From contig JAENYG010000029.1 in assembly GCA_016841875.1 (NCBI GenBank), positions 1 to 34,374 on the forward strand: a stretch of DNA of 34,374 bases, given 5' to 3'. Positions 3,630-28,838 of the stretch are shown here, piece by piece. Source of the DNA: Syntrophomonas sp. (GTDB lineage: Bacteria; Bacillota; Syntrophomonadia; Syntrophomonadales; Syntrophomonadaceae). The translations under genes were made by a program, and so were the position numbers. How positions within the stretch are numbered: the first letter of the stretch is position 1; every line of letters begins with the position of its first letter. A model generated the notes under the pieces. That model ran no database searches, had not been told where the DNA came from, and saw nothing but the letters and a program-made list of their open reading frames with translations.

Positions 3630-5039
3630 CTATTTTCCTGGGATACCTGGTTTTGTTACTTGAAATAGATTTAGGATCTGCAAGGCTTGTTCTTCAGTCA
3701 TAATATCATCGTCCACCAGCACCTGTTTAATAGTTTTTCCCCTTTGACGAGCTTTTTCGGCTATCCGGGCCGCCTGGTCATAGCCAGTATAGTCGATTAA
3801 TGCGGCCGCCAGAGCGGAGGAGGCCTCTACATGTTCCCTGCATTTATCTACATCAATTATAATTCCTTTAATACATTTTTTATTAAAAATATCAACGGCC
3901 TTGGTGAGTATCTCTAGAGAGTCCAACAGGCATTCCGCTATCAATGGTATAAAGGCATTGAGCTCCAGCTGGCCTGATGCTGCTGCCAGAGTAATACAGG
4001 TGTCATTGGATATGACTTTCATAGCAGTCTGAACCACCATCTCACATATTACCGGATTCACTTTACCCGGCATTATAGATGAACCGGCCTGAACAGCCGG
4101 AAGCTTTATCTCCCCTATTCCTCCGACTGGTCCTGATGACAACAGCCGCAAATCATTGGCGATTTTTATCAAGTTAACTGCCGCTGATTTTAAGAGCCCG
4201 GATACTTCAACAAAGACATCCATATTCTGAGTGTTATCTATGGGGAAATCACTTCTGGCCAACCCCAATCCGCTTAAATCCTGCAGAATATCCGTTACTG
4301 TGTAGATATAAGCCAGCGGAGCATTAATTCCTGTACCTATTGCAGTACCTCCCAGATTAATTTCTCTGAGCCTTTCTTCAATTTTATACAGCCGCCATCT
4401 GTCCCGGGATACAGCTCTCGCATAAGCACCAAATTCCTGGCCTGCCGTTATCGGCAGCGCATCCATTAACTGAGTGCGCCCCAATTTCAATATGCCGCTG
4501 AATTTGTTTTCATTCGCCTGCAGGCTTTCCTGGAGATTCGCAAAGGATTCGCTTAAAATTCTCAGCAGCTTGATAGCTGCAATCCGTAGAGCAGTAGGAT
4601 ATACATCATTGGTAGATTGACAGCAGTTTACCTGGTCCAGGGGGTGAATTATCTGGTAATCGCCTTTTTTCTCTCCCATTATTTCCAGAGCCCGGTTAGC
4701 TATTACTTCATTGACATTCATGTTGCTGGAAGTTCCCGCCCCACCCTGCATGGCGTCTACAATAAAATGCTCATCCAGGTTCCCTGTCAGAATATCGTCA
4801 CAGGCCTTGATAATTGCCTGAGCTTTATCCTCTGTCAGTTGTCCAATATGAACATTGGCCATGGCCGCAGCCTTTTTTACCAGAACTATCGCATAAATCA
4901 GGTTTTGATTGGTTTTTCTGCCCGATACCCTGAAATTTTCCAAAGCGCGGGCAGTATGTATTCCATAATAGGCATCAGCAGGAATCTCTGCCCTTCCCAG
5001 CATATCCTCTTCTATACGATAGGTCATTTCTGTTTCCAT
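3630..5039 (-). CDS. aspA: aspartate ammonia-lyase (aspartase)
   Basis: Converts L-aspartate to fumarate and ammonia in the cytosol. The protein has 469 residues, the usual length. It carries the fumarase/aspartase superfamily signature GSSIMPGKVNP at residues 319-329, the conserved AGTSSNMNVNEV block (101-112) and STNDVYPT (142-149). Aspartase is preferred over class II fumarase because of the N-terminal YYGIHTARALENF segment, but substrate choice cannot be proved by reading. The ATG at 5037-5039 has an AAAGGA site inside the end of hydF. The gap to the hydF stop is 3 nt, so the two genes are almost certainly co-transcribed and translationally coupled. In several anaerobes, as I recall, aspA lies among the [FeFe]-hydrogenase maturase genes, so this pairing is not accidental. 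Ammonia for the H-cluster amine bridge is a possible role, by inference. Confidence 0.93.
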   Translation of the reverse strand: METEMTYRIEEDMLGRAEIPADAYYGIHTARALENFRVSGRKTNQNLIYAIVLVKKAAAMANVHIGQLTEDKAQAIIKACDDILTGNLDEHFIVDAMQGGAGTSSNMNVNEVIANRALEIMGEKKGDYQIIHPLDQVNCCQSTNDVYPTALRIAAIKLLRILSESFANLQESLQANENKFSGILKLGRTQLMDALPITAGQEFGAYARAVSRDRWRLYKIEERLREINLGGTAIGTGINAPLAYIYTVTDILQDLSGLGLARSDFPIDNTQNMDVFVEVSGLLKSAAVNLIKIANDLRLLSSGPVGGIGEIKLPAVQAGSSIMPGKVNPVICEMVVQTAMKVISNDTCITLAAASGQLELNAFIPLIAECLLDSLEILTKAVDIFNKKCIKGIIIDVDKCREHVEASSALAAALIDYTGYDQAARIAEKARQRGKTIKQVLVDDDIMTEEQALQILNLFQVTKPGIPGK

Positions 5040-5042
5040 ATG

Positions 5043-6278
5043 TTATTCGGTCCTTTCTGCGGCCAATTCCATCCTGGCCAGTGGAAACGGTATCAAAGCC
5101 CGATCCAATATACCGTGGACCCAGGCAATAAGCACTCCGTAATTCACAATGGGAACTCCGACATTTTTGGCTTGTTCTATACGGTGCATTACCTCTTTTC
5201 GGTTCAGCATACAGGCACCACAGTGAACTACCAATGCATATTCACCCAGATTTTTAGGATATTCAATGCCAGCTACATGGTCAAATATCAGCTGTTTTCC
5301 AGTCCTCTGGCGGAGCCAGCGTGGTATCTTGACAGTCCCTATATCATCGGATTGCCGGTGGTGAGTACAGCCTTCGCTGATCAATATCCGATCATGGTCT
5401 TGAAGATTTTCTATAGCTGAGGCCCCTTTGACCAATTCCACCAAATCTCCTTTGTAACGGGCAAAAAGTATAGAAAAAGAGGTCATCATAATATCTTTTG
5501 GTGTATCAGCAGATACTTTTAAAAATACCTGGGAATCAGTAATGACCATTTTAGGTTTTCTACCCAGATTAGCCAACGTTTCTCGCAGTTCATATTCCTT
5601 AGTGACCACAGCTATAGCATCGGTTTCCAGGATGTCGCGTATAGCCTGCTGCTGAGGCAGTATGAGTCTTCCTTTGGGTGCAGCCTTATCTATCGGTACA
5701 ACCAGTACTACAAAATCTCCTGGATCAATTAAATCGCCCACCAGCCGAAATTTGTCATTTTCATTCGGCAGGTTTTCTATCATCATCTTCTTGAGTTCTT
5801 CTATCCCCTGCCCGGTCAGAGCTGATACCGGTATAATAGGAAACCCGACCTGCTCAGGTAGTTCATTCATCTGAATATTGGCACTGCAGTCAATTTTATT
5901 CCAGGCCGCCACTATGGGTACATTTTTTTCTTTTAATAGGGCAGCAATAGATCGATCATAAGTTGTATACCCTTCCAGTGCATCTATTACTAACACTGCC
6001 AGATCAGCCTTATTTATAATATCCAGGGTTTTCTCTCTTCTCAATTCTCCCAGTTCACTGACATCATCCAGGCCGGCAGTATCGATCATGACCACCGGCC
6101 CGACTGGAAGCAGTTCCATTGGACGGTATACCGGATCGGTAGTTGTACCTTTCACTGGGGAAACCAGGGCGATGTTTTGCTTGCTGACAGCATTGATCAG
6201 ACTTGATTTTCCCGCATTAGTCCTGCCCAAAAAGGCAATATGATGTCTGTTGGCACGGGGCGTGGAATTAAGACTCAT
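5043..6278 (-). CDS. hydF: [FeFe]-hydrogenase H-cluster maturation GTPase HydF
   Basis: Scaffold on which the diiron subcluster of [FeFe]-hydrogenase is built with HydE and HydG before transfer to the apo-hydrogenase. It has 411 residues, as expected. The N-terminal GTPase domain shows the P-loop GRTNAGKSS (18-26), DTAG (66-69) and NKID (127-130). A dimerisation region follows. The C-terminal cluster domain carries the family signature C304-T-H306 followed by HCGAC (C353, C356), the ligands for its [4Fe-4S] cluster. The ATG at 6276-6278 follows a strong GGGAGGGG site. hydE and hydG are not in this window. The gene is first in an apparent hydF-aspA operon and lies behind a structured leader described separately. 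Confidence 0.97.
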   Translation of the reverse strand: MSLNSTPRANRHHIAFLGRTNAGKSSLINAVSKQNIALVSPVKGTTTDPVYRPMELLPVGPVVMIDTAGLDDVSELGELRREKTLDIINKADLAVLVIDALEGYTTYDRSIAALLKEKNVPIVAAWNKIDCSANIQMNELPEQVGFPIIPVSALTGQGIEELKKMMIENLPNENDKFRLVGDLIDPGDFVVLVVPIDKAAPKGRLILPQQQAIRDILETDAIAVVTKEYELRETLANLGRKPKMVITDSQVFLKVSADTPKDIMMTSFSILFARYKGDLVELVKGASAIENLQDHDRILISEGCTHHRQSDDIGTVKIPRWLRQRTGKQLIFDHVAGIEYPKNLGEYALVVHCGACMLNRKEVMHRIEQAKNVGVPIVNYGVLIAWVHGILDRALIPFPLARMELAAERTE

Positions 6279-6410
6279 TAATATCCCCTCCCAATAAAAT
6301 ACCCCTTTCCCGCCATAAGAGAGGAAAGAGGTGCACTATGTTCCAGTATTTTATTTGGGCGCCTTCCTCGCTCTCAGGCAAAAAACCCTTGAGGTGAGAA
6401 TACTTATATT
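6279..6410 (-). promoter_or_regulatory. structured, possibly bistable 5' leader of hydF-aspA
   Basis: Read as minus-strand RNA, this stretch can form two incompatible structures. Fold A, formed by the segments transcribed first, pairs GAGGAA and GGCGC (6369-6359) with GCACC and UUCCUC (6334-6321), with a 3-nt bulge and a few further outer pairs. Fold B pairs ten perfect bases, 6355-6346 with 6302-6293. Inside it, CCUCUUUCC (6331-6323) pairs with GGAAAGGGG (6310-6302, one wobble). Fold B ends exactly at the hydF ribosome binding site (6292-6285) and could hide it. This is the layout of a translational riboswitch, but I recognise no known family. Folding was done by eye. Confidence 0.45.
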
Positions 6411-6563
6411 TACTTTGCTATTATTTTCCTGTTAGTATTTGTTTTTGTCAAGAAGATAATTTTGCCAGGAGGGATATCACAACCATAATAACCATCTGAA
6501 TCCCGTATTAAGTCAGACAGCATCCTGCCACGGGAAAGGAAGAATCAGAACTAACTAAAAGCA

Positions 6564-6585
6564 ACCACTACTCGCCAGCAGTGGT
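6564..6585 (-). terminator. possible terminator of cadA
   Basis: Minus-strand hairpin with stem ACCACT/AGTGGT and a 10-nt loop, 14 nt past the cadA stop, followed by TGCTTTTA. The short stem and poor U-tract make it a weak candidate. Confidence 0.35.
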
Positions 6586-6599
6586 CGGCCAAACTATTC

Positions 6600-8696
6600 T
6601 CAAAAATGTTTCGCGGCCCGCAGGGTGCGGGTTGAGTTAAGGACTGCCAGCAAAGCTACCCCCACATCGGCAAATACTGCCTCCCACATAGCCGCTGCGC
6701 CCATTAAGCTCAAAATGACAACGGCGGCTTTTATTCCCAGGGTCAGGATAATGTTCTGGATGACAATTTTTCTTGTGAACCGTGCTATTTGGATGGCACG
6801 GGGCAGCTTGTTCAGGTGGTCATCCATCAATACCACATCAGCCGCTTCAATAGCGGCATCAGATCCCAGTGCTCCCATGGCCACACCAATATCTGCCCGG
6901 GTGAGCACCGGGGCATCGTTTATGCCATCACCTACAAATACCAGCTGTCCCTGTTTATCTGGAATAAATTCTTTTATGTCCTCCATCTGTTCTACCTTGT
7001 CCTGGGGAAGAAGTTCAGCATATACCTGATCTACCGCTAATTCACCGGCGACTATCTCCGAAGTGTTTCTATCATCTCCGCTGAGCATTATGATTTGTCT
7101 CACACCCAATTGTTTTAACTGATGTATTGAATCAGCTGCATCTATTTTTAATTCATCGGATATCAGCAAGCAGCCAGCGTGCCGCCCATCGACTGCCACA
7201 TAAACCATGGTCCCCGGTTCAGTCTTTCTTATATGCTCTATTCCTTCCCTATCCAATAGCAAGCTGCTTCCAAGCAAAACCCGGGTGCCTTTTATAACCG
7301 CTTTAATGCCGCTGCCCTCGATTTCTTCATATTTTTCAATCAGATCCGGGTCTAGTTTACCCGGCCATGCTTCTCTAACTGATCTGGCTATAGGATGGCT
7401 GGAATATATTTCTGCTAAGGCTGCCCATTCCAATATTTCTTTTTCATTAAAGCCATTTCTGCTTTCTATTTGAATCACTTTAAACATTCCCTGTGTGAGG
7501 GTGCCCGTTTTATCAAATACTACTGTGTCCACATTTACCAATTGATCCAGAACATTAGCTCCTTTAACCAGAATACCAGCCCGGGAAGCAGCGCCTATGC
7601 CCCCAAAGTAACCGAGAGGTATGGAGACCACCAGGGCACAGGGACAGGATATAACCAATAGAATAAGAGCTCTATAAATCCAATCGTCAAAAGCTGCTCC
7701 GGATATAAACAGCGGAGGAATAAAGGCAGTCAGCAGTGCTCCTGCTACTACCAGTCGAGTATACCGACCTGCAAAGCGGGTGATAAACTGTTCTGCAGGT
7801 GCTTTCCGACCTGCCGCATTTTCCACCAATTCTAATATTTTTGAAACCGAGGATTCCGCATACTCTTTGCTAACTCTTATTCTCAGCAGCCCAGAGCTAT
7901 TGACAACTCCGCTGAGAATTTCCATCCCCGCTTCAACTCGACGCGGTTTAGATTCCCCGGTCAGTGCAGAACTATCTACATATGATCTCCCTTCTATGAC
8001 AATACCGTCCAATGGCACCCTTTCACCTGGTTTGATCTCGATAATTTGCCCCACTATGACTTCAGCGGGATCCACCTTTTCGCTTCTGCCGTTCAGCAGC
8101 AAGTTAGCATAATCCGGGCGAAGGTCCATAAGCTCTGATATCGAACGGCGCGACCTGTTTACTGCCATATCCTGAAACATTTGTCCAACAGCATAAAAAA
8201 GCATAACGCTGACTGCTTCTCCCAGGGCATTAACTGCTATAGCGCCTATTGTAGCAATAGACATCAAGAAGTTTTCATCAAATATTTGTCCTTTCAAGAT
8301 ATTATTCATAGCCCTGGTCAATACAGGATACCCGGCCATAAGATAGGCGCCTGCATAGAACAGATAAGAAATATCGCCATAATTATCTTTTCTGTCTAAT
8401 AGCAGAGCTCCCCCCAGCAATACTGCGCTGATAAATATTCGGATGAGGCTATTCTTCGGATAATAATAATCCACCCTTTGGGCCTTAACCGCAGTTTTAT
8501 CTATGGCTACCAGACGAACACCAGGTTCCACGCGATCTGCTATCTTCTGAACGTTATCAGCAAATGAAGGTTCTAAATTCAAGGACATAGTAGCCAGGTT
8601 GATTTTTACATCTCTTAATTCTGGTATTTGGTTGATTTCTTTTTCAATTTTGGCGGCACAGTTGACGCAAGTGAGTCCCTGCAGAAAATATTTCAT
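6600..8696 (-). CDS. cadA: P1B-type Cd2+/Zn2+/Pb2+-exporting ATPase
   Basis: Heavy-metal efflux pump of the plasma membrane, 698 residues. An N-terminal HMA domain has the metal site CVNC (C10, C13). The membrane core carries TGES (246-249), the transport motif CPC in SCPCALV (351-353), the phosphorylation site DKTGT (395-399), the HP motif in SSHPIA (434-435) and GDGINDAP near residue 615. The last helix has ADVGVALLAVLNSTR, whose Asp marks the Zn/Cd/Pb class (CadA/ZntA) rather than copper pumps. The ATG is at 8696. A purine-rich AAAGGAAAAG lies a little far upstream, so initiation may be modest. A CadC-like repressor gene lies 219 nt upstream on the same strand, so cadmium, zinc or lead is the likely inducer. 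Confidence 0.95.
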   Translation of the reverse strand: MKYFLQGLTCVNCAAKIEKEINQIPELRDVKINLATMSLNLEPSFADNVQKIADRVEPGVRLVAIDKTAVKAQRVDYYYPKNSLIRIFISAVLLGGALLLDRKDNYGDISYLFYAGAYLMAGYPVLTRAMNNILKGQIFDENFLMSIATIGAIAVNALGEAVSVMLFYAVGQMFQDMAVNRSRRSISELMDLRPDYANLLLNGRSEKVDPAEVIVGQIIEIKPGERVPLDGIVIEGRSYVDSSALTGESKPRRVEAGMEILSGVVNSSGLLRIRVSKEYAESSVSKILELVENAAGRKAPAEQFITRFAGRYTRLVVAGALLTAFIPPLFISGAAFDDWIYRALILLVISCPCALVVSIPLGYFGGIGAASRAGILVKGANVLDQLVNVDTVVFDKTGTLTQGMFKVIQIESRNGFNEKEILEWAALAEIYSSHPIARSVREAWPGKLDPDLIEKYEEIEGSGIKAVIKGTRVLLGSSLLLDREGIEHIRKTEPGTMVYVAVDGRHAGCLLISDELKIDAADSIHQLKQLGVRQIIMLSGDDRNTSEIVAGELAVDQVYAELLPQDKVEQMEDIKEFIPDKQGQLVFVGDGINDAPVLTRADIGVAMGALGSDAAIEAADVVLMDDHLNKLPRAIQIARFTRKIVIQNIILTLGIKAAVVILSLMGAAAMWEAVFADVGVALLAVLNSTRTLRAAKHF

Positions 8697-9302: not shown

Positions 9303-9356
9303 CACCTGAATTATTGTTCATATGTACATTTTCTCTCATTTAGTTAGACAGGTCAA
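9303..9356 (-). promoter_or_regulatory. cadC promoter with SmtB/CzrA-type operator
   Basis: On the minus strand, TTGACC (9356-9351) and GAAAAT (9333-9328) are exactly 17 nt apart as -35 and -10. Just downstream, where transcription should start, is ATGAACAATAATTCAGGTG (9322-9304). Its core TGAACA-N2-AATTCA-like dyad (9320-9307) closely resembles the operators of SmtB and CzrA repressors. The position suits repression of the adjacent repressor gene. Confidence 0.75.
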
Positions 9357-9373
9357 GCTGCCTAAGCAAAAGA

Positions 9374-9389
9374 ATATGTTGCAACATAT
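9374..9389. repeat. perfect 16-bp palindrome ATATGTTGCAACATAT
   Basis: Perfect dyad placed 17 bp upstream of the cadC -35 box. It could be a second operator in the region. I do not recognise the binding protein. Confidence 0.6.
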
Positions 9390-9406
9390 CCCCCATCTTT
9401 TGTCCA

Positions 9407-9444
9407 AAAAGAGATGCAAGGCCTGATTACCTTGCATCTCTTTT
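9407..9444. terminator. strong bidirectional terminator-like hairpin
   Basis: Perfect 15-bp stem, 9407-9421 with 9430-9444, and an 8-nt loop. The stem base is AAAA on one side and TTTT on the other, so it could act in either direction. No annotated gene reads into it from either side. It may insulate the cadC promoter or end an unannotated small RNA on the minus strand. Confidence 0.7.
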
Positions 9445-9708
9445 CCTGTGCTTATTTTCATTTGGGTTCGCTTAGCATATACCCTATTTGGTTTCCTTAA
9501 TCATTTGATATTAGCAATTTAATATTTCCCTTAACAGATTCAATAATTCCAAGTATCATAAATATCATACTTAAACCCCATGCTACCCCTTAATCGCCCC
9601 TTTAGACTCGATATCCAACTTCAATAATTCGGGCTGAGCTTATGAACTGACCGGTTAGGTTTGACCCGGATTAACCTTAACTTAACATACATTTAATAAA
9701 TTCTTTGT

Positions 9709-9714
9709 TATAAT
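9709..9714 (+). promoter_or_regulatory. -10 box of the small orphan gene
   Basis: A perfect TATAAT lies 80 nt before the start codon. The upstream -35 match is poor: TTAACA at 9682-9687 is 21 nt away, and CATACA at 9686-9691 is at 17 nt. Confidence 0.35.
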
Positions 9715-9794
9715 TTGTTAAATGCTTTTAGCTTTTATATGGAATATACTATTCTTCTGAAAATACAATAAATATAGTGGGGAGGTGTCATAGG

Positions 9795-17586: not shown

Positions 17587-18456
17587 TCATCTGATTGTTT
17601 TGGTGAATGCCAATGCGGTGGGAGTTACAGCACAGCCACCCCGGGCTGTTTCTCTCAAATCACTCGACATCATGTTCCCTATCCGAAACATGGCGTCCAC
17701 AACTTCATCAAAAGGGATAAAACTATTGATTCCTGCCAGGGCCATATCAGCACATATAATCGCATTGGCAGTCGATGTCGCATTCCGTTTGGAACAGGGC
17801 ACTTCTACCAATCCGGCTACCGGATCACATACCAAACCCAGGAGTCCTTTGAGAGCTATCGCTGCAGCCTCCATACATACACTCGTATTCCCTCCTCCCA
17901 GGTAAGCTGCTGAGGCAGCGGCCATTGCGGAAGCTGCTCCGCATTCTGCCTGACATCCTCCTGCTGCCCCGGACAGTGTAGCATTGCTGGCTATGATCTT
18001 ACCAATCCCAGCCGCAACAAACATAGCATTTATAACTTGTTCACGGGAGTACTCCTTTTCCTCTTTTAAGGCAATAAGTATCCCCGGGAGAATACCGCTG
18101 GAACCTGCTGTAGGTGCTGCCACTATCTTTCCCATGCAGGCATTATACTCCGTGACCGCCAGAGCATAGGCAACGGCTTGGTTTATGATTTTTCCTCCCA
18201 GGCTGCCATGTTGTAAATAGGAATTCAGTTTGGCAGCGTTCCCACCTATCAAGCCGCCTATAGATTTCAAGTCTGGTTCAAGTCCTTTTTCAACCGAGTT
18301 CTCCATGATCCCAAGCCTGGAATCCATTTCGTTCCATATCTCATCCCGACTCCGGCCCCATTCCTCTTGTTCCGACAGGATAACTGCATCAGGCAGTTTA
18401 AGATTTCGTTTATCACAAATTTCCAGCAATTCCCTGGCTCGACTGAACTGATACAT
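17587..18456 (-). CDS. sdaAA: L-serine dehydratase, iron-sulfur dependent, alpha subunit
   Basis: With the beta subunit, deaminates L-serine to pyruvate and ammonia using a [4Fe-4S] cluster rather than PLP. The 289-residue protein shows APTAGSSGILPG, the cluster-region cysteines in GAAGGCQAECGAA, and CDPVAGLVEVPC. Its C-terminal AVTPTALAFT is also typical. The ATG at 18456 follows ATGGAGG. It is 26 nt downstream of sdaAB, so both are in one transcript. The enzyme is oxygen-sensitive, which suits an anaerobe. Downstream, after 275 nt, lies the large FAD/Fe-S oxidoreductase. A TAAGATG/CATCTTA inverted repeat (17486-17514) lies in that gap. Confidence 0.97.
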   Translation of the reverse strand: MYQFSRARELLEICDKRNLKLPDAVILSEQEEWGRSRDEIWNEMDSRLGIMENSVEKGLEPDLKSIGGLIGGNAAKLNSYLQHGSLGGKIINQAVAYALAVTEYNACMGKIVAAPTAGSSGILPGILIALKEEKEYSREQVINAMFVAAGIGKIIASNATLSGAAGGCQAECGAASAMAAASAAYLGGGNTSVCMEAAAIALKGLLGLVCDPVAGLVEVPCSKRNATSTANAIICADMALAGINSFIPFDEVVDAMFRIGNMMSSDLRETARGGCAVTPTALAFTKTIR

Positions 18457-18482
18457 AAACTATCCTCCATTTATACATTTTT

Positions 18483-19142
18483 TTAAACGTCCACGAACAT
18501 TATTTTTACTATTTCAGGTACCGAAGCAATTTCATCCAGCATGGATCGTGTTACTTCCTGGTCAGTCTCTATCACCATGGATGCCTCACTGCCTCTCGAT
18601 TGTCGAAACACTTTAAGAAAAGCTATATTAACCGAATGATTAGCAAATATCGAACTCACCCGTGCCACTATACCCGGCTTATCACGATGAACAGTGATTA
18701 TAGTAGGGTACTGCCCGGAAAATTCGATATGGGTATTGTTTATAGACGAAACCCTCACCTCACCTCCACCAATCGAAGCACCGGTTAGTTCGCCTGCTGA
18801 ACCATCGGCGCAGCTCATGACTATTTTTACGGTATTGGGATGAACATCTCCCAGGTCCGCAGTGTGAAAAGCAACTTCAATACCAGACTCCCGGGCATAC
18901 TTAAAAGAGTCTCGTATCCTTTCATCTGCGGCATTCATACCCAGTACGCCTCCCAGGAGAGCCCTGTCCGTCCCGTGCCCCCGGAAGGTCTCAGCAAAAG
19001 AGCCATGAAGATAAAAATCCACTATACGTATTTTGTCAGTACAAACCCGACGGGCGATATTTCCCAGTTTCGTAGCTCCTGCAGTATGTGAGCTTGATGG
19101 TCCTACCATTACCGGTCCAATAATATCAAAAATACTAACCAT
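18483..19142 (-). CDS. sdaAB: L-serine dehydratase, iron-sulfur dependent, beta subunit
   Basis: Partner of SdaAA, 219 residues. The N-terminal domain carries the conserved FDIIGPVMVGPSSSHTAGA, which binds substrate with the alpha chain. Residues about 145-219 form an ACT domain (TIITVHRDKPGIVARVSSIF), a usual place for allosteric serine sensing. The ATG at 19142 has AAGGTG upstream. It is the first gene of the sdaAB-sdaAA unit. The upstream 225 nt, shared with the divergent LCP gene, hold the dyad ATTTGCA-N4-TGCAAAT, a candidate operator. Confidence 0.97.
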   Translation of the reverse strand: MVSIFDIIGPVMVGPSSSHTAGATKLGNIARRVCTDKIRIVDFYLHGSFAETFRGHGTDRALLGGVLGMNAADERIRDSFKYARESGIEVAFHTADLGDVHPNTVKIVMSCADGSAGELTGASIGGGEVRVSSINNTHIEFSGQYPTIITVHRDKPGIVARVSSIFANHSVNIAFLKVFRQSRGSEASMVIETDQEVTRSMLDEIASVPEIVKIMFVDV

Positions 19143-19223
19143 TTTATATTCACCTTCTTTACCTGCCTTAGTAACAGCTTATAGTGTATTCTGCCCCTGC
19201 TCCATATTTTTCATTAGAAACCA

Positions 19224-19241
19224 ATTTGCATTCTTGCAAAT
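19224..19241. promoter_or_regulatory. dyad between sdaAB and the LCP gene, candidate operator
   Basis: ATTTGCA-N4-TGCAAAT, a perfect inverted repeat with 7-bp arms, in the 225-nt space between the two divergent genes. The binding protein is not recognised. It could act on either gene. Confidence 0.45.
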
Positions 19242-19367
19242 ATTTTTGACCTTAGATAGTCCACATCCTGACAATACCTTCAAATCCTTCGTCCTGCGTC
19301 TGATGGGACATTTTTTTATGTATTCCGCATAAAATTAAAACTACCAGTCTTTTTTATAGGAGATATT

Positions 19368-20261
19368 ATGGCTTTTAAATTGGACCCCCGAATTCTTTTA
19401 ACCCTGATAATCAGCCTTACTATATTCAGCGCCCAATTAGACAGCGCATTCCCTCCCAGCCTGGAAGCAAGGTTGGAAAATAATGAGATCACCAATATAC
19501 TCCTTATAGGTATAGATGCTCGGCCGGAAGAAATCAATGCTCGCAGTGATACCATCATGCTGTTAAGTATAAATAACCAGATCAAGCAGGCCGCTATTAT
19601 ATCAATACCCCGTGATACACGTATAGTGTTCCAGGGTAAAAACAGAAAGATCAACATGGTTAACCAGTTGAAGGGCCCTAATGCCTTATGCCAGGAAGTA
19701 TCCACTTTAATGGGTACCAGTGTTGAGCATTATATCCTGACCAACTTTAATAATTTCAAAAATATTATAGACCAATTGGGTGGTATATGGATTGATGTGG
19801 ATATCGATCTACATAGTCCTGCTACAGGTGTATATCTAGGTAAAGGATACCAGTGTCTGAGCGGCCAAGAAGCCTTAACCTATGTTCGCTTCCGGAGCGA
19901 CGTAGATGGCGATATCGGAAGGGCACAGCGCCAGCAGAGATTTATTGCTGCCCTGGCCGAACAGATGTTAATAAAGGAAAACCTGCCGCGCTTGCCTGGA
20001 ATCGTCATGGAAATAAAAGAAAACGTGCAAACTAATATAAGCCTGCGGGATATGGTTTACCTCGCCCGTCTGGCATCAGAGTATAAAACGGATGATCTGA
20101 TTACTCAAACTTTACCGGGATATCATTACTGGGCTCAAAACTCAGGGGCAAGTTTCTGGGAAGTTGATCGCGAAATCGCCCGGAGCGTGATCGATTCATT
20201 ATTTAACGGTCACCGATATGAAACCCGGCTTGAGGCACCACCCTGGGTAAATAGTTATTAA
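19368..20261 (+). CDS. LytR-CpsA-Psr (LCP) family cell-wall protein
   Basis: Membrane-anchored phosphotransferase thought to attach teichoic acids or other glycopolymers to peptidoglycan from undecaprenyl-phosphate-linked precursors. The 297-residue protein has a short cytosolic start, one hydrophobic anchor (about residues 9-28) and an outer LCP domain. Family hallmarks are present: NILLIGIDAR, ARSDTIMLLSIN, SIPRDTRI, and the arginine-rich VRFRSDVDGDIGRAQRQQRF. The ATG at 19368 follows AGGAGAT. It is divergent from sdaAB and convergent with a nitroreductase gene, so it is probably transcribed alone. Annotating it as a transcription regulator (LytR) would follow an outdated name. Confidence 0.94.
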   Translation: MAFKLDPRILLTLIISLTIFSAQLDSAFPPSLEARLENNEITNILLIGIDARPEEINARSDTIMLLSINNQIKQAAIISIPRDTRIVFQGKNRKINMVNQLKGPNALCQEVSTLMGTSVEHYILTNFNNFKNIIDQLGGIWIDVDIDLHSPATGVYLGKGYQCLSGQEALTYVRFRSDVDGDIGRAQRQQRFIAALAEQMLIKENLPRLPGIVMEIKENVQTNISLRDMVYLARLASEYKTDDLITQTLPGYHYWAQNSGASFWEVDREIARSVIDSLFNGHRYETRLEAPPWVNSY

Positions 20262-20329
20262 TCCATTTCGATGGTTAGAGGACAGCTTATATTACCCTGC
20301 CCTATATGTTACAATTCTTTACTTATTCA

Positions 20330-20869
20330 TTAATATTTTTCATAATGTACAAATTGATTTATTTCTTTCCTGGCCGGCTTTACTCCTGGATGGATCGGAT
20401 AACCCAGTGGTATTATCTCTACACTCTCCACTGCCTCAGGCAGTCCGAGTATTTTGTCTACTTCCTTATGGTCAAATCCTCCAACATGTACTGCCCCCAA
20501 CCCCCTGGCATGTGCGGCCAGGCAAAAACTTTGTCCGGCAATCCCCATATCAAACATATGCCAATCACCTTTTATGGTTAGGGGTGATCCCTTGATATAC
20601 CCCGAAACCCCGATGCGGGCGCAAAATACCAGCACCACCGGCGCCTCTTTCAATCCTTTAGCGGCCGGATTACCCGGGGCAAGCTGCTCGATTAATGCCT
20701 CTTTATTCTTCTTATCTTTTACTACCACTACTTCCCAGCACTGGGTATTGTGCCACGATGGAGCCCACCTGACTGCTTCCAGGAGTTCCTCCAGTATTTC
20801 GTCAGTCACATCCTGTTCAGTAAATCCCCTCACACTCCGCCGAGTTTTGATACAGGTCAAGGTATCCAT
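20330..20869 (-). CDS. nitroreductase family protein
   Basis: FMN-dependent NAD(P)H oxidoreductase of 179 residues with the usual start, CIKTRRSVRGF, whose arginines and serine contact the FMN phosphate. It also has WAPSWHNTQCW, which is near the flavin, and GLGAVHVGGF. Natural substrates of this family are mostly unknown (quinones, nitro compounds, flavin recycling). The ATG follows GGAGGG. It is downstream of the MBL-fold gene on the same strand, separated by 99 nt that contain a REP-like palindrome. It ends 68 nt from the convergent LCP gene. Confidence 0.93.
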   Translation of the reverse strand: MDTLTCIKTRRSVRGFTEQDVTDEILEELLEAVRWAPSWHNTQCWEVVVVKDKKNKEALIEQLAPGNPAAKGLKEAPVVLVFCARIGVSGYIKGSPLTIKGDWHMFDMGIAGQSFCLAAHARGLGAVHVGGFDHKEVDKILGLPEAVESVEIIPLGYPIHPGVKPARKEINQFVHYEKY

Positions 20870-20923
20870 TAATCATCCCTCCAGTTAGATTTTGTTTTAC
20901 AGCGGGGTTAAGCAGAAAGTCAG

Positions 20924-20949
20924 CTAATAAGTTAATAAGCTAATAAGTT
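20924..20949. repeat. short direct repeat, 16-nt spacing
   Basis: The 10-mer CTAATAAGTT occurs at 20924-20933 and again at 20940-20949, with AATAAG between the two. It directly abuts a REP-like palindrome and may be part of the same inserted element. Confidence 0.6.
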
Positions 20950-20962
20950 AGTGCCTGGCACC
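20945..20962. repeat. REP-like palindrome copy 1 (core GTGCCTGGCAC)
   Basis: AAGTTAGTGCCTGGCACC. It matches 15 of 18 positions with the copy at 27186-27203, and two of the three differences preserve the dyad symmetry. It is just past the stop of the MBL-fold gene. Confidence 0.65.
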
Positions 20963-20968
20963 ATTAAC

Positions 20969-21862
20969 TTACCTTTTAAGAGAAAATCTCAGGTATTCGT
21001 CTTCCATGAAAACCACTGCTTGCCCCTCATCACACATATAGGATAAAAAAGCAGAAATGCTGGCCCACAGGCGAAAATAGTGGTTGCGGTTCATGTGCCA
21101 ACCCTTTCGGCTAATAACTTCTCGCATGATTTCCTCCCGGGTTCGGGTTCTTTCCAGTATGTTTTTCAGCATATTCAGGGTATCCATCAATATTCCATAG
21201 TTTATATCTATATCTCCAGGGACATCCTCTGTTATTCCCCCGTGGGACAGATAGAAGGGCAGATGACTTTTCAAGGTGATTTTCTCAATGGTTTTCAATT
21301 GTTTACCCAGGTCGGAAACATATAAAAACGAATTAAGCTGTAATGCGGCCGGTGAAATCAGACTATCCCCCACGAACACAACTTGATCGGGAGTCATTAT
21401 CCCCATATGCCCCAGACTGTGTCCAGCCAGGTCCAATATTTCAAATTCTTCTCCATTAATAAATTGAGATCCATGGTATATTATACTGCTTACTCTGGAT
21501 GGTGCTGGCATAAGAAATTTCCCGGTCAATAATTTTACTGGATGAGATGAATACATGCTGTAAGGAGTTAGAATGGGATGGTTGATAAAGGCGGCCTCCA
21601 TTTCCGAGGCTAATATCTGGCAGTGGCTCTCCTTCTGCATATATTGATTGCCGCCGCAATGGTCGGCATGGGCATGGGTATTAAATATTCCCCATACCCC
21701 CCAGCCTTGTTGTTCTAATATCTGCAAAGCTTCTGCGGCCCGGGCCTGGTTAGGGCCGCTGTCAATCAGCAGACAGCTTCTATCTTCAAACAGGTACAGC
21801 CCTATAGCGGCTGAATTACTCTCCAGGGCATAGGTGCTGCCAGTTATGTGCCGCAGTTCCAT
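20969..21862 (-). CDS. metallo-beta-lactamase-fold hydrolase
   Basis: Probable zinc hydrolase of 297 residues with the canonical metal site HAHADH (in THAHADHCGG, H63-H68), a later GHSLGHM histidine, and FVGDS supplying the bridging aspartate. The last 80 or so residues form an extra helical region of the kind found in MBL proteins related to glyoxalase II. The exact substrate is unknown; a thioester or lactone is possible. I start at the ATG at 21862, which has GGAGG 7 nt upstream. An ATG two codons earlier would be only 1 nt from that site. It follows lplA by 48 nt and may belong to the glycine cleavage operon. A thioesterase acting on lipoyl or acyl adducts would fit, but that is speculation. 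Confidence 0.9.
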   Translation of the reverse strand: MELRHITGSTYALESNSAAIGLYLFEDRSCLLIDSGPNQARAAEALQILEQQGWGVWGIFNTHAHADHCGGNQYMQKESHCQILASEMEAAFINHPILTPYSMYSSHPVKLLTGKFLMPAPSRVSSIIYHGSQFINGEEFEILDLAGHSLGHMGIMTPDQVVFVGDSLISPAALQLNSFLYVSDLGKQLKTIEKITLKSHLPFYLSHGGITEDVPGDIDINYGILMDTLNMLKNILERTRTREEIMREVISRKGWHMNRNHYFRLWASISAFLSYMCDEGQAVVFMEDEYLRFSLKR

Positions 21863-21910
21863 TATCATCCCTCCGGATATCCCTTTCTCTCACCATAATA
21901 TACCAAATTA

Positions 21911-22897
21911 TTACCTGCACAGCAGATCTGTGAATTCTTTTTTATTAGTGTGAGGAAGATATTTTTCCAGGTCCAATTGCTCCAGGCATTTTTTGATGTC
22001 CTCTTCTTGATACACTTCACCAATCAATGTCTTTTCCAATTCTTCAATATCACCACCTGCAAAGTAATCGCCATATATTCGGCATCCACTTATCAGGCCG
22101 CGTTTAATATCAAGCCGGATATCGATATTGCCCCACGGATAGGGGTGGGTTTTCCTGACATTATAAGCTGGCGATTTTCCGTAGTTCCACGCCCAAGCAG
22201 AATATTTATTATCCCTCAAATCGTTTACTGCATGCAGATCGCTATCTGTGAGCTGATAGCTATGGTTACTATCCTCCGCCCGCAGCACTTCTTCGGCTAG
22301 TATCTGCTTGAACTCCTCCACGCTGACCGGGATCGACAAGTGTTCACTGATATTGGTAACCCTGCTCCGCACCGACTTTATTCCCTTGGAAGATATTTTT
22401 TCGGTACTGGGATTTAATGCCTCAGCCATATCCTCCAATCTGGAATCAAATAAGATAGTGCCATGATGCAAAAGCCGGTCTCTAAACTTAAACTGGGCAT
22501 TGCCAGAAAACTTCCTGCCTTTAATGGTAATATCGTTCCTCCCGTTATTTTCAGCCTTAATCCCTATCCTTTTAAGCGCCGTTATTACCGGGCGGGTGAA
22601 TTTCTCAAAGTTAGCAAAATCGTTATTTTCGTCTACTACTACAGTAAAATTAAGATTACCCAGGTCGTGGTAAACAGCACCTCCTCCGGACATTCTCCGC
22701 ACCACTTGTATGCCCTTTTCCTCCAGGTAGGCCTGGTTTATTTCTTCAATAGTATTCTGGTTTCTTCCTATGATAACCGCAGGCTGATTCTGCCATAGTA
22801 TGAAATAGCTCTGGCTGCCTGGCCAGTTTTTTACCGCATACTCCTCCAGAGCCAGGTTAAAGCAGGGGTCGTGGGAGCTATTGGTAATTTCTATCAT
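21911..22897 (-). CDS. lplA: lipoate-protein ligase A
   Basis: Activates free lipoate with ATP and attaches it to a lysine of a carrier protein, here most likely GcvH of the same cluster. The 328-residue protein has the family motif RRMSGGGAVYHD (67-78) and the catalytic lysine region KGRKFSGNAQ (K129), followed by HHGTILFD. The C-terminal accessory domain is present, so both activation and transfer should be possible. The ATG follows GGAGGTGA 9 nt upstream. It lies 93 nt after lpd, with a strong hairpin between, so its level may be set lower than the upstream genes. Having it in the operon suggests lipoate salvage; no lipA or lipB is in the window. Confidence 0.95.
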   Translation of the reverse strand: MIEITNSSHDPCFNLALEEYAVKNWPGSQSYFILWQNQPAVIIGRNQNTIEEINQAYLEEKGIQVVRRMSGGGAVYHDLGNLNFTVVVDENNDFANFEKFTRPVITALKRIGIKAENNGRNDITIKGRKFSGNAQFKFRDRLLHHGTILFDSRLEDMAEALNPSTEKISSKGIKSVRSRVTNISEHLSIPVSVEEFKQILAEEVLRAEDSNHSYQLTDSDLHAVNDLRDNKYSAWAWNYGKSPAYNVRKTHPYPWGNIDIRLDIKRGLISGCRIYGDYFAGGDIEELEKTLIGEVYQEEDIKKCLEQLDLEKYLPHTNKKEFTDLLCR

Positions 22898-22930
22898 CCC
22901 GGCAACTCACCTCCGTAAGCCGAGTATAAA

Positions 22931-22964
22931 CAGCGGGGATACTGGAATTCCAGTATCCCCGCTG
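22931..22964 (-). terminator. strong hairpin between lpd and lplA
   Basis: Perfect 15-bp stem (22931-22945 with 22950-22964) around the tetraloop AATT. On the minus strand it is followed by TTTATACT, a weak U-tract. It may partly end gcv transcription or protect the 3' end of the lpd message, since a complete lplA gene with a ribosome site follows. Confidence 0.7.
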
Positions 22965-22990
22965 GCCATATATATCAGAGGGGGACGGCT

Positions 22991-24373
22991 CTAGCGCCCA
23001 GATGGAGCTAGATGAACAGCTTTTCCCTGAACATCGAGTACTGCTTCCATTACCGCTTCACTCAAGGTAGGATGAGGATGAATGGTCCCAGGTATTTCGG
23101 TCACTTTCATCCGATTTTTAACCATCATAGTTCCTTCTGTTATTAAGTCACTGGCATGAGGGCCGATGATGTGTACTCCAATAATCACCTCATCCTGGTC
23201 GGCCAGAACTTTTACCATACCATCGCTTTCTCCCATAGTTAAGGCCTTGCCATTAGCAGCAAACTGGAATTTTCCGGTCCGGTATTCGATTCCCTGTGCC
23301 CGTGCTTCCTCTTCGCTCATACCCACACTGGCAATTTCAGGTATGGTAAAAACACATCCGGGTACCGCATGATAATGAACCCGGGTATTCTGTCCGGCCA
23401 TATTTTCGACTGCAGCCATACCCTCTTCTGATGCGGCATGAGCCAGCATATAGCCTCCAATTACATCGCCGATAGCATATATGCCCTCTATATTAGTTGA
23501 AAAGCTGCTGTCAACTTTAATAAAACCTGATTCATCCAGGTCTATCCCCAACTTTTCCAAACCCAAACCCTCGTTGTACGGTTTCCGGCCTCCAGCCACC
23601 AATATGATGTCGGCCTGAGCTTCAATAAGTCCTTTTTTCCCCCGGGCGGTGATCTTCAAGACATCGTTATCCGCTTCAATTTTTTCTGCTGAGGCAGAAA
23701 TGTTAACGGATATATGCTGTTTTTTGAGAAATACCAGCATGCGTTTGCCCAGTTCGTTATCGAAAGTATTCAACAGGTAAGGCATATATTCGAATACGCT
23801 GACCTGACTGCCCAGGGAATTAAATATGCAGGCAAACTCCAGTCCGATAACTCCTCCCCCGATAATTACCAGTTTATCAGGCACCTGATCTATTTCCAAC
23901 ATCTGATCGCTGTTTAGTACTCCCGGTAAATCTATCCCGGCAATGGGCAGGGAAGCCGGAACTGAACCGGTAGCCAGCAGAAGGTTTCTGCCCTGAATAC
24001 ATTCACCGTTGACCAGTACCGTGGTTTTATCCAATAAAGCCGCTTCTCCTTTTATCCTTTCGACCCCATTGGCCTGCAACAGTTTTTCTATGCCCATAGT
24101 TAAACTTTGGACGATTTTATTTTTTCGCTCCTTAGCCCCGGCCATATCAAATAATATATTATCTGCCTGTATGTTAAATTCACTGCTGCTCTTTATGTCC
24201 CTCATGGCCAGAGCATTCCGATAATATGCTTTAGTAGGAATACAGCCCCGATTCAAACAGACCCCACCCACGGTGTCCTTTTCAATCAGAACCACACTCA
24301 TTCCCAGCTGACGAGCCCGGATGGCAGCTACGTAGCCACCTGGACCTCCACCTATTATAATCAAGTCTTTCAT
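22991..24373 (-). CDS. lpd: dihydrolipoamide dehydrogenase (glycine cleavage L-protein)
   Basis: Reoxidises dihydrolipoyl-GcvH with NAD+. It is an FAD disulfide oxidoreductase of 460 residues. Motifs: FAD-binding GGGPGG (8-13), the active disulfide in GGVCLNRGC (C39, C44), the NAD-binding GGGVIGLEFA, AIGDVIG, and the C-terminal HPHPTLSEA that provides the catalytic His-Glu pair. I take the ATG at 24371-24373, with GGGAGGC 9 nt upstream and 2 nt after the gcvPB stop. A longer GTG frame begins inside gcvPB. Its place directly after gcvPB assigns it to the glycine cleavage system rather than a 2-oxoacid dehydrogenase. Confidence 0.97.
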   Translation of the reverse strand: MKDLIIIGGGPGGYVAAIRARQLGMSVVLIEKDTVGGVCLNRGCIPTKAYYRNALAMRDIKSSSEFNIQADNILFDMAGAKERKNKIVQSLTMGIEKLLQANGVERIKGEAALLDKTTVLVNGECIQGRNLLLATGSVPASLPIAGIDLPGVLNSDQMLEIDQVPDKLVIIGGGVIGLEFACIFNSLGSQVSVFEYMPYLLNTFDNELGKRMLVFLKKQHISVNISASAEKIEADNDVLKITARGKKGLIEAQADIILVAGGRKPYNEGLGLEKLGIDLDESGFIKVDSSFSTNIEGIYAIGDVIGGYMLAHAASEEGMAAVENMAGQNTRVHYHAVPGCVFTIPEIASVGMSEEEARAQGIEYRTGKFQFAANGKALTMGESDGMVKVLADQDEVIIGVHIIGPHASDLITEGTMMVKNRMKVTEIPGTIHPHPTLSEAVMEAVLDVQGKAVHLAPSGR

Positions 24374-24375
24374 GA

Positions 24376-25824
24376 TCAAGGGGCCTCCCACTTAATCACT
24401 GGTTTACGGGCCGCGGTCACCTCATCAACTCGTCTGATCACTGCATTATGGGGCGCATTGATGACTAATTCCGGCTCTTCTGCCGCTTCTCGGGCGATAG
24501 ATCGCATAGCCTGAACAAAGTCATCCAGACGCTCTTTGCTTTCGGTTTCAGTAGGCTCAATCATTATGGCTTCACTTACGATCAACGGGAAATATACTGT
24601 GGGTGGATGATACCCGTAATCGATCAGACGTTTAGCGATATCCATGGTAGAAATACCATTCTGGTCAGCCTGTCTTTTGGAATTGGTTACAAATTCATGC
24701 TTGCACAGCCGGTCCAGGGGGATATTATAACTATCCCGGAGTTGATGGCGCAGGTAATTCGCATTTAACACCGCATGTTCACAGACTTCTTTTATCCCCT
24801 CCGCTCCCAATGCTTTGATATACACGTAGGCTTTGACAATAACTCCAAAATTTCCGTAGAAGTTCTTCACCTTGCCGATGGACAGGGGCATATCATAATC
24901 AAACCCATAGCTATCGCCTTTTTTAACGGCTACTGGCTTAGGCAAAAAGTCGAGCAGTATCGATTTAACTCCAACCGGTCCTGATCCTGGTCCTCCAGCA
25001 CCATGGGGAGTACCAAAGGTTTTGTGCAGGTTCACATGTATGACATCAAATCCCATATCTCCTGGTCGTGCAATTCCGATAATACCGTTCAGATTAGCTC
25101 CATCATAGTAGAGCAGTCCTCCACCTTCATGTACTATGGCTGCAATTTCCTGGATTTCTTCCTCAAATAGCCCCAGGGTGTTGGGATTGGTAAGCATCAA
25201 TCCGGCTACCTGCTCATCCATTTTTGCCCGCAGATCATCCAGGTCAACCAGGCCGCGATCGTTTGATTTTACTTCGATGACATCAAACCCTACCATATTA
25301 GCCGTAGCCGGGTTAGTGCCATGAGCCGAGTCAGGTACCATCATTTTGGTTCTCTGTTGATCCTGACGGTTCAGATGATAGGCTTTGATGGTCATAACAC
25401 CGACCATTTCTCCATGGGCTCCGGCCGCCGGCTGAAGTGAAAATCCATCCATCCCGGTTATCTCTGACAGCATCTCCTGCATCTCATAATATATTTGCAG
25501 AGCACCCTGGATGGTATCTTCTGCCTGGTAAGGATGAAGTCCAGCCAATCCTGGCAATCTGGCTGCCCACTCATTTATCTTGGGATTATATTTCATAGTA
25601 CAGGAACCGAGCGGATAGAACCCACTATCTACACCATAGGCACGGGTAGACAGCTCGGTAAAATGCCGTACTGCTTCTACTTCACTGACTTCCGGCAGAG
25701 CTGTTTCCTGGTCCCGCAGAAATTGCTTAGGAATGCTATCCAGATTTGCTGCTGGTATTGCCAGCGGAGGTAGGACAAAAGGATTGCTATCTGGGACATG
25801 CTTTTCGAAAATAAGTTTACTCAT
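24376..25824 (-). CDS. gcvPB: glycine dehydrogenase (decarboxylating) subunit 2
   Basis: PLP-bearing half of the split P-protein. With GcvPA it decarboxylates glycine and loads aminomethyl onto lipoyl-GcvH. The protein has 482 residues. The PLP lysine is K268 in [16 protein letters not shown], a glycine-rich block typical of the family. [11 protein letters not shown], near residue 75, is also conserved. The ATG at 25824 is 1 nt after the gcvPA stop, indicating translational coupling. Splitting P into two subunits is normal in Firmicutes and archaea. Confidence 0.98.
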
Positions 25825-25825
25825 C

Positions 25826-27139
25826 CTATTTCCCTCCTAACACTGCGGTCAGCTGGTCAATCTCTTCTTTGGTCCTCTTCTCAGTAAAGGCCAGCAGCAA
25901 AGCATCATCCAGTTCATATCCACCTATAATGCCATTTTCAAGTAATTTTCGATTAGCGGCAGCAGGATCATCGACTTTAATGGCAAATTCCATAAAATAA
26001 GGCTGCTTATATTTTAATTCCATTCCCGCCCTTTCTAATTGCTGTTGGGCATATAATGCCAGCTGGTGGCAGCGAGTTGCTATGTTTTTCAGGCCCTTTT
26101 CACCCACAAAAGTCAAGTACATACTGGCAGCCAGGGCACACAAAGCTTCATTGGAGCAGATATTGGATCCCGCTTTTTCACGTCGGATATGCTGTTCTCG
26201 GGCCTGCAGGGTTAATACATAAGCCCTCTTGCCATCCAGATCGCTGGTTTGTCCAACTATCCGACCTGGAATTTTACGCATTAGAGCCTTCCGGGCGGCA
26301 AAAAATCCCAGGTATGGTCCTCCCAGACTCAGACTGTTTCCCAGCGGCTGACCTTCCCCCACGGCAATATCCGCCCCCCATTCGGCGGGAGACTTTAATA
26401 AAGCCAGTGAAATAGGTTCCACGGCCATAATAAACATACCCTTGTTTTCGTGAACAGCCTTTTCTAAGGCTTCAGCATCTTCCAATATGCCATAAAAATT
26501 GGGCTGTTGAATGACAGCACAGGCAGTTTGGCTATCAACCGCCTGGATCATAGCATCAATATCTGCTGCACCTTCTTGACCCGGTACCATCACTACTTCC
26601 ATGTTCCCTGAAAGGGAGTAAGCCTTTAATATATCCAGGTATTCAGGATGAACCGTATCCGAAACTATAACCTTTTTTCGGCCTTTACTGCTGGCACAGG
26701 CCAGGTTACAGGCTTCAGCCAGGGCGCTTCCCCCATCATACATGGAAGCATTAGACACATCCATTCCAGTAAGTTTGCATATCATGGTCTGGTACTCAAA
26801 AATAGACTGCAAAATGCCCTGACTCATTTCAGGCTGGTAGGGTGTGTAAGCGGTGTAAAATTCAGAACGCAGCAGCAGCTGTTCCAGTGCTGCTGGTATG
26901 TAATGATCATAAGCGCCGGCTCCCAGGAAACATGGATGATCTTCAGCATTAACATTCCTGGCGGCCAGATCTTTCATTCTGCGGCGAAGCTCCATTTCGC
27001 CCATTCCTTCAGGAAGATTCAAAGCATTTTGAACCTTAACTTCAGCTTCAAGGTCGCTGAACAACTCATCCAAACCTTTCAGCCCTATCGTCTGAAGCAT
27101 TTCCTTTACTACGGATGGCGGATTTGGAGTATACTTCAC
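25826..27139 (-). CDS. gcvPA: glycine dehydrogenase (decarboxylating) subunit 1
   Basis: Non-PLP half of the split P-protein, 437 residues, required for the dimer's active site. It begins with the family-typical MLQTIG..LDELF segment. It carries [14 protein letters not shown] and [20 protein letters not shown], both strongly conserved. The start is GTG (CAC at 27137-27139) behind GGAGGG at good spacing. It is preceded by a 76-nt gap after gcvH that contains a REP-like palindrome, and is coupled to gcvPB by a 1-nt gap. Confidence 0.98.
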
Positions 27140-27185
27140 GGCACTCCCTCCTTATAAAGATTTTCCCATTTCAGCATAAGTTCGC

Positions 27186-27203
27186 AAGTTGGTACCTGGT
27201 ACC
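27186..27203. repeat. REP-like palindrome copy 2 (core GTACCTGGTAC)
   Basis: AAGTTGGTACCTGGTACC, in the gcvH-gcvPA gap. Compared with the copy at 20945 it has a paired G-to-A and C-to-T change that keeps the dyad. It also resembles the core of FapR operators, but no promoter or lipid gene is here. Confidence 0.6.
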
Positions 27204-27215
27204 TTATTTGGTACT

Positions 27216-27599
27216 TTATTCGAGATTTTTGCAAAATTCTGTATATGCTTCGGCAGACATGAGTTTTTCCAGATCGCTATGATCAGTCAATTCTATTATG
27301 GCAATCCAGTTACCATAAGGATCTTCATTTAACAATTCCGGAGCTTCCTCTAATTCCTCATTCACTTCTATGACTTTTCCTCCCGCCGGGCTGAAAAGAG
27401 TAGCCACGGCTTTTACAGATTCAATAACCCCTATAGATTCACCCATAGCCGCTTCCTCACCCACTTCCGGAAGTTCTACAAATACTATATCTCCCAGATG
27501 GTGCTGAGCATAATCGGTAATACCGATGTTACCCTTTTCTCCGTCAACCCTTATCCATTCGTGCTCGCTGGTGTAAAGTAATTTCTTGGGTATATTCAT
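27216..27599 (-). CDS. gcvH: glycine cleavage system H protein
   Basis: Lipoyl carrier that shuttles the aminomethyl group between P, T and L proteins. The 127-residue protein has the lipoylation lysine K63 in ESVKAVATLFSP and the conserved NEDPYGNWIA downstream. The ATG follows GGAGGGG. It is 132 nt after gcvT, a gap holding a small AATAAC/GTTATT hairpin right at the gcvT stop. Lipoyl H-protein has also been reported to take part in H-cluster bridge synthesis, which is of interest given hydF in this window. Confidence 0.98.
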   Translation of the reverse strand: MNIPKKLLYTSEHEWIRVDGEKGNIGITDYAQHHLGDIVFVELPEVGEEAAMGESIGVIESVKAVATLFSPAGGKVIEVNEELEEAPELLNEDPYGNWIAIIELTDHSDLEKLMSAEAYTEFCKNLE

Positions 27600-27731
27600 A
27601 TTAACCCCTCCATTAATTATTTTATTGATATAGATACATGATGACTGCTAAATCTCCTGTACCAATGTACGAGCGATAAAACAGCTGAAATTATAGGATA
27701 CTTAGATATCTTGTACTAATAACTTGAGTTG

Positions 27732-28838
27732 TTATTTAGATTTAGTTTTTTTCCTATAGAATATCCCCGAGTCCACTACTGCCTGTACCGTTTTACCCCG
27801 AATCACAATATCTATCTGAGTACCCGGTTCCGTAAACTCAATGTTAATCAAGGCTAGACCGATAGGCCTTTTAAACGTTGGAGCATGCAGTCCAGTAGTA
27901 ACATGTCCAATAGTAACCCCATCTTTTTGAACCTCATAGTGTGAGCGAGGAATTCCTTTGCCGATCATAGAAAATTCCACCACTTTTCTTTTTAAACCTT
28001 CTTCCTTCTGCTTAAGCAGAGCAGACCTGCCAATAAAATCATCAGTATTCAGTTTAACAAAGAAACCTAATCCTGCTTCCAACGGAGTTATATCCTGGTC
28101 AATTTCCTGTCCATATAAAGGAAGTTTGGATTCAAAACGCAGACTGTCCCTGGCCCCAAGTCCGACCGGGCTCACATCTTCCCCACCTGCCTGCAATATT
28201 TCCTCCCATATAAATGCCGCATCCTGAGGCTTAATATATAATTCAAAGCCATCTTCACCGGTATAACCGGTTCGGGATACAATACACTCTATACCTGATA
28301 TCCTGACGACAGGATTAAACCAGAAGAAACGAATACTGTCCAGATCCGTATCGCTCAACTTCTGCAATATCTCCTGGCTTTTAGGTCCCTGCAGGGCAAG
28401 CTGCGCATATTCATCAGAAACATTTTTAGCCTCTACTCCATCCATTAGGTTATTCTGTATCCATGTAAAATCCTTATCAACATTGGCCGCATTCACCACC
28501 AGAAGATATTTATTACGATTATACCTGTATACCAGCAGGTCATCCACTACTCCTCCAGTAGGGTAACACATCAGGCAGTAAAGTACCTGCCTATCCTCTA
28601 AAGTTTTCAAGTCATTGCTCACCAGTTTTTGCACAAAATCCTCGGCTTTATCCCCGGTCACCCAAACTTCACCCATGTGCGATACATCGAAAAGTCCTGC
28701 TTTCTCACGAACCATATTGTGTTCTTTGATGATACCCATACCTTCATATTGTACCGGTAGTTCCCAACCCCCAAAGTCAATAATTTTACCGTTATACTTG
28801 AGGTGCATGGGATAGATCGGTGTTTGTTTCAACGACAT
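27732..28838 (-). CDS. gcvT: glycine cleavage system T protein (aminomethyltransferase)
   Basis: Transfers the methylene group from aminomethyl-lipoyl-GcvH to tetrahydrofolate, releasing ammonia. It has 368 residues from the chosen start. Conserved parts are IDFGGWELPVQYEGM, the folate-domain DVSHMGEV, SRTGYTGEDGFEL, and a C-terminal barrel (GHVTTGLHAPTFKRPIGLA). Two ATGs are adjacent in frame; the second (28838) is better spaced from GGAGG (6 nt against 3). It is first in the order gcvT-gcvH-gcvPA-gcvPB-lpd. No clear glycine riboswitch precedes it, which is unusual among Clostridia and Bacilli. Confidence 0.98.
   Translation of the reverse strand: MSLKQTPIYPMHLKYNGKIIDFGGWELPVQYEGMGIIKEHNMVREKAGLFDVSHMGEVWVTGDKAEDFVQKLVSNDLKTLEDRQVLYCLMCYPTGGVVDDLLVYRYNRNKYLLVVNAANVDKDFTWIQNNLMDGVEAKNVSDEYAQLALQGPKSQEILQKLSDTDLDSIRFFWFNPVVRISGIECIVSRTGYTGEDGFELYIKPQDAAFIWEEILQAGGEDVSPVGLGARDSLRFESKLPLYGQEIDQDITPLEAGLGFFVKLNTDDFIGRSALLKQKEEGLKRKVVEFSMIGKGIPRSHYEVQKDGVTIGHVTTGLHAPTFKRPIGLALINIEFTEPGTQIDIVIRGKTVQAVVDSGIFYRKKTKSK

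Follow-up and report, generated by a model that had tools for sequence, protein, structure and literature searches.

The leader of the hydF-aspA transcript is best explained as belonging to the transcription-attenuation type, with a terminator before hydF, a reading to which we give slightly less than even odds (about 0.47). What can be stated plainly is the sequence of this leader, its conservation between two species and the presence of a non-random hairpin with a tail. A strong hairpin followed by a U-rich tail points to transcription termination rather than to the translational switch proposed by the initial annotation. The attenuator is a candidate in two related species; it is neither a demonstrated riboswitch nor a new RNA class.

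According to the mechanism that we propose, the hydF-aspA transcript would begin at about 6416, the start expected from a promoter-like site that lies upstream of all stems, and would carry a leader of 138 nt. This leader would close with the intrinsic-terminator hairpin 6332-6301 and its tail AUUUUAUU, just ahead of the hydF Shine-Dalgarno sequence. By default, transcription in vivo would presumably stop at about 6293 or read through it in part. Speculatively, the upstream strand pairings 1:2 and 2:3 may allow a signal to favour readthrough, and an RNA-binding protein, a small molecule or the speed of RNA polymerase might each provide it. Any such signal could, again as speculation, relate to the amino-acid or ammonium state of the cell. 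The more specific proposal, that the leader is a lineage-specific RNA sensor of an H-cluster assembly signal (ammonium, an amino acid or iron-sulfur state) controlling termination before hydF-aspA, strikes us as very improbable.

Layout, conservation and distribution of the leader

On the minus strand of the window (the whole stretch of 34,374 nt analysed here), the 5' to 3' order is the end of a heavy-metal P-type ATPase gene, a terminator-like hairpin, a promoter-like site, the leader of about 138 nt, hydF and an aspA-like gene (Table 1). The last two are separated by 3 bases. The product of the aspA-like gene, assigned with NF008909, scores 553.7 against TIGR00839 (aspA), under that model's cutoff of 681.2. 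Because hydF has its own promoter-like site with a terminator-like hairpin upstream, its leader is likely a true 5' leader.

Table 1. Features of the hydF-aspA locus (positions in the window)
Feature	Position	Strand	Basis
aspartate ammonia-lyase gene (aspA-like)	3630..5039	-	NF008909, 667 bits, cutoff of 510 exceeded
hydF, [FeFe]-hydrogenase H-cluster maturation GTPase	5043..6278	-	TIGR03918, 578.9 bits against a cutoff of 325.6
conserved 5' leader of hydF-aspA, ~138 nt	6279..6416	-	alignment with sister species
hydF Shine-Dalgarno GGGAGGGG	6285..6292	-	sequence; identical in sister species
U-rich tail AUUUUAUU, directly 3' of the hairpin	6293..6300	-	sequence, alignment
terminator-like hairpin ACCUCUUUCCUCUCUUAUGGCGGGAAAGGGGU; outer stem of 11 bp with G-U pairs, arms ACCUCUUUCCU/GGGAAAGGGGU	6301..6332	-	folding
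antiterminator candidate (early fold): GAGGAA 6369-6364 with UUCCUC 6326-6321, GGCGC 6363-6359 with GCACC 6334-6330	6321..6369	-	
first hairpin: strand 1 UUCUC (6400-6396) with strand 2 GAGGA, inner CUC..GG/CC..GAG	6365..6400	-	predicted, both species
promoter-like site TTGACA-17-GAAAAT	6423..6451	-	consensus scan, 10 of 12 positions
terminator-like hairpin between the ATPase gene and hydF	6562..6587	-	consensus scan
heavy-metal P-type ATPase gene, 5' of hydF	stop at 6600	-	

A search of 61 genomes with HydF returned a single close copy of the locus, in the metagenome-assembled genome Syntrophomonas sp. BM5_bin.8 (the sister species), whose HydF protein is 93% identical. The leader matches its counterpart there at 131 of 137 aligned bases (95.6%), whereas the remaining intergenic DNA that aligns in the window is 0.869 identical (Fisher p = 7e-4); this comparison is conservative, since some other intergenic DNA failed to align. 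Fourfold sites of hydF are 0.81 identical (19% divergence), and 12.6% of 130-nt windows across the region, which is mostly coding, match the similarity level of the leader. Leader and promoter together align over 206 columns with nine substitutions and two indels. Conservation of the promoter block (6407-6483, 73 of 77 positions identical) equals that of the leader, and homology is lost further upstream. The leader is real, and these alignments indicate that it is under mild constraint.

Two observations from the same alignments may be recorded here. Between about 200 and 330 nt upstream of hydF, beyond the shared promoter, the sequence of the sister species (L003) is unrelated and includes a long imperfect palindrome, GTTAGGCACTAACTTACCAACTTATT...AATAAGTTAGTAAGTTAGTGCCTGAC; this is perhaps a small mobile element. 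Elsewhere in the window, a 471-bp intergenic stretch free of listed genes (9306-9776) aligns almost end to end with the sister species at 92%.

Searches for known families agreed with the view of the initial annotation that no named riboswitch precedes these genes: Rfam 15 at gathering thresholds gave no match in the window, and a relaxed search of 6240-6620 gave chance matches only, the best being L10_leader at 13.7 bits where 44 are needed. Three covariance models, of the early fold, the late fold and the 5' module, were built on the two available sequences, and among the 63 genomes of the order, which also make up the class-level set, they found the leader only in the two sister species. 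Conservation in relatives, on which the proposed switch had been made to depend, holds for one sister species and was seen in none of the other genomes of the order. Nothing credible appeared with these models in 398 genomes of the phylum, and a search of the leader's own genome showed no second copy; the filters of these searches are strict and could miss very divergent members. A new riboswitch class would have a covarying core in many genomes; here there are two carrier species with sequences 96% alike.

Weaker matches were rejected on inspection. Those of the covariance models lay antisense inside a phosphatase-like gene (L062), within a repeat-like stretch (L063), in a partial similarity confined to the 5' part (L064), in a terminator at a gene end (L068) and in a common short stretch near the ribosome site only (L071). 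A BLAST match (G001:C5) fell in the region around the ribosome site of a gene that looks like one for ribosomal protein L7/L12. Nearly all of 31 other hydF upstream regions lack a comparable hairpin, and many of these hydF genes lie directly behind another gene. Strong hairpins with a U tail do occur 39 and 64 nt upstream of hydF in L021 and L028, where the leader models find no match.

The terminator-like hairpin and its upstream competitors

The hairpin at 6332-6301, whose 3' arm is GGGAAAGGGG, has a predicted energy of -16.4 kcal/mol, and of -14.3 kcal/mol in the sister species, where a U-G to U-A substitution in the stem keeps the pair. The hairpin lies 22 nt before the hydF start codon. 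When the leader was shuffled, an equally strong hairpin with a U-rich tail arose in none of 200 sequences, and in one of 200 for the sister species, in which the tail reads AUUUUUAUU. In folding, the 132 nt as a whole exceed shuffles by a moderate margin only (z = -2.0, with 6 of 200 as good). The leader therefore contains the stable hairpin and U-rich tail of an intrinsic-terminator attenuator, the tail being imperfect in that it is interrupted (AUUUUAUUGGG); the hairpin is absent from the sites listed by a consensus terminator scan.

All of the pairings named in the initial annotation are present in the letters, with correct coordinates. Its late fold retains the perfect, AU-rich 10-bp stem (AAUAAAAUAC 6355-6346 with GUAUUUUAUU 6302-6293), to whose 3' side the U-rich tail also contributes, and the inner stem, given as 9 bp, comes to 11 bp once G-U pairs are counted. 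The sister species has one more U in the 10-bp stem, reads UA in place of CC beside it and has lost flanking pairs; the energy of this element is weaker there, at -17.3 kcal/mol against -25.1.

Folding of growing transcripts gave in both species the order of a four-strand attenuator, with 1:2 and 3:4 on one side and 2:3 on the other. The 5' hairpin (6365-6400) is a candidate anti-antiterminator in this model; in the sister species a C to U substitution replaces a C-G pair with U-G, which keeps the strands paired. Its 1:2 pairing is of marginal strength, being equalled in 23 of 400 (6%) and 62 of 400 (16%) shuffles. Pairing of strands 2:3 reaches a probability of 0.5-0.6 at about 109 nt in both species, before the hairpin closes; thereafter it stays under 0.03, with a value below 0.01 at 120 nt, and the completed hairpin is favoured over it by about 4.8 kcal/mol. 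We also held the hairpin fixed and shuffled the 84 nt upstream, at two transcript lengths per species. The 5' arm of the hairpin was sequestered as strongly in 137 of 400 (34%) and 42 of 400 (10%) shuffles, and in 107 of 400 (27%) and 75 of 400 (19%) for the sister species. Since equally strong competitors arise in 10-34% of shuffles, selection for a switch is not supported, and the early pairing stays near the level of chance.

Competing explanations for the leader

This last result is what a constitutive structured 5' UTR would predict, in which the hairpin protects the 5' region of the mRNA or fixes a basal level of readthrough and nothing is sensed. It is the main rival, though one that we consider unlikely. 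In its favour, the alternative pairing is no stronger than in shuffled sequences, and most other hydF genes lack such a leader, so that control of this kind is not a general trait of hydF. It accounts less well for the conservation of all 138 nt above local intergenic DNA, well beyond the hairpin and including predicted loops such as GGAACAUAG. A constraint at the level of DNA, with operator sites under selection and the RNA folds incidental, could explain the equal conservation of the promoter block, and an operator could be seen in the near inverted repeat CCCAAATAAAATAC/GTATTTTATTGGG; the repeat is, however, changed on both arms in the sister species, and a reading of this kind does not easily explain why a hairpin should carry a directional U tail, which leaves the idea with little probability.

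The translational switch, in which the ribosome binding site would be covered by the late stem or by an outer one, AGUAUUCUC/GGGGAUAUU, now appears quite unlikely. An outer stem of 9 bp involving the Shine-Dalgarno sequence is indeed predicted for an RNA that stops short of the start codon, and the sole substitution in this stem preserves pairing. Once the first hydF codons are included, however, enforcing either the early or the late fold gives about equal predicted pairing of GGGAGGGG, mostly with the hydF coding sequence; the late stem does not reach the Shine-Dalgarno, and the 10-bp stem is weaker in the sister species. By prediction, then, the leader does not switch the ribosome site between being covered and being accessible, and the pairing of this site is nearly independent of the state of the leader. 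Temperature, which had been offered as a possible signal, fares no better, because predicted Shine-Dalgarno pairing is almost flat between 25 and 55 C (means of 0.82 to 0.75, and of 0.76 to 0.75 in the sister species), unlike that of an RNA thermometer. A reading frame with a TTG start at 6381 (6268-6381, 34-37 codons, AAGGG 4 nt upstream) leads into the hydF start. Control through a leader peptide encoded there, by attenuation or translational coupling, would be consistent with the absence, in both species, of a stop codon in the frame before it reaches or crosses the hydF start. Three of the four substitutions in the frame nevertheless change residues and one is silent, an insertion shifts the frame in the sister species, and by our own estimate chance frames of such length are not unusual. 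The frame does not encode a conserved peptide with regulatory codons, as a peptide-leader attenuator would, and we regard this explanation as highly doubtful.

H-cluster context and comparison with known systems

Should transcripts end at the hairpin, as the attenuation reading predicts, the leader would offer a testable point at which syntrophic bacteria control the maturation of [FeFe]-hydrogenase. Aspartate ammonia-lyase, a proposed nitrogen supplier of the H-cluster bridge (PMC11736057), would be made from this transcript as well. A 2024 paper (PMC11736057) reports that in vitro the bridge nitrogen can come from aspartate or serine through their ammonia-lyases, with the glycine cleavage H-protein taking part, and that many organisms carry aspA close to hyd genes. 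An iron-sulfur L-serine ammonia-lyase gene (17587-19142) lies in the same 34 kb, as do gcvT, gcvH, gcvPA and gcvPB for glycine cleavage and, on the basis of translations only, genes for lipoamide dehydrogenase and lipoate ligase. The position of hydF-aspA beside them is to be expected from these nitrogen-supply findings. In the literature that we searched, we found no description of RNA-level control of hydF.

Taken together, 17587-28841 and 3630-6278 (hydF-aspA, serine ammonia-lyase, glycine cleavage and lipoyl-related genes) contain the parts that the 2024 model for the H-cluster dithiomethylamine bridge names (PMC11736057). A perfect 15-bp hairpin, CAGCGGGGATACTGGAATTCCAGTATCCCCGCTG, lies at 22931-22964 between two lipoyl-related genes, in an intergenic region that has 16 inserted bases in the sister species. 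Upstream of gcvT (28842-29403) no glycine riboswitch was detected, relaxed thresholds included.

Among known systems, the riboswitches of Rfam 15 resemble the hydF leader in placing alternative folds in a 5' leader ahead of a metabolic operon, whereas the hydF leader reaches no family threshold and is not spread across genomes. With the trp-type peptide-leader attenuators it shares a four-strand arrangement and an upstream open frame, but its frame has no run of regulatory codons, and in the sister species this frame is shifted and little conserved. Intrinsic-terminator attenuation leaders, a general class in Bacillota, offer a further comparison. Although the hydF leader has no known sensor element, a candidate antiterminator at the level of chance and ends that we infer, it has in common with them a length of about 140 nt, a hairpin and U-rich tail before the first gene, and competing strands upstream.
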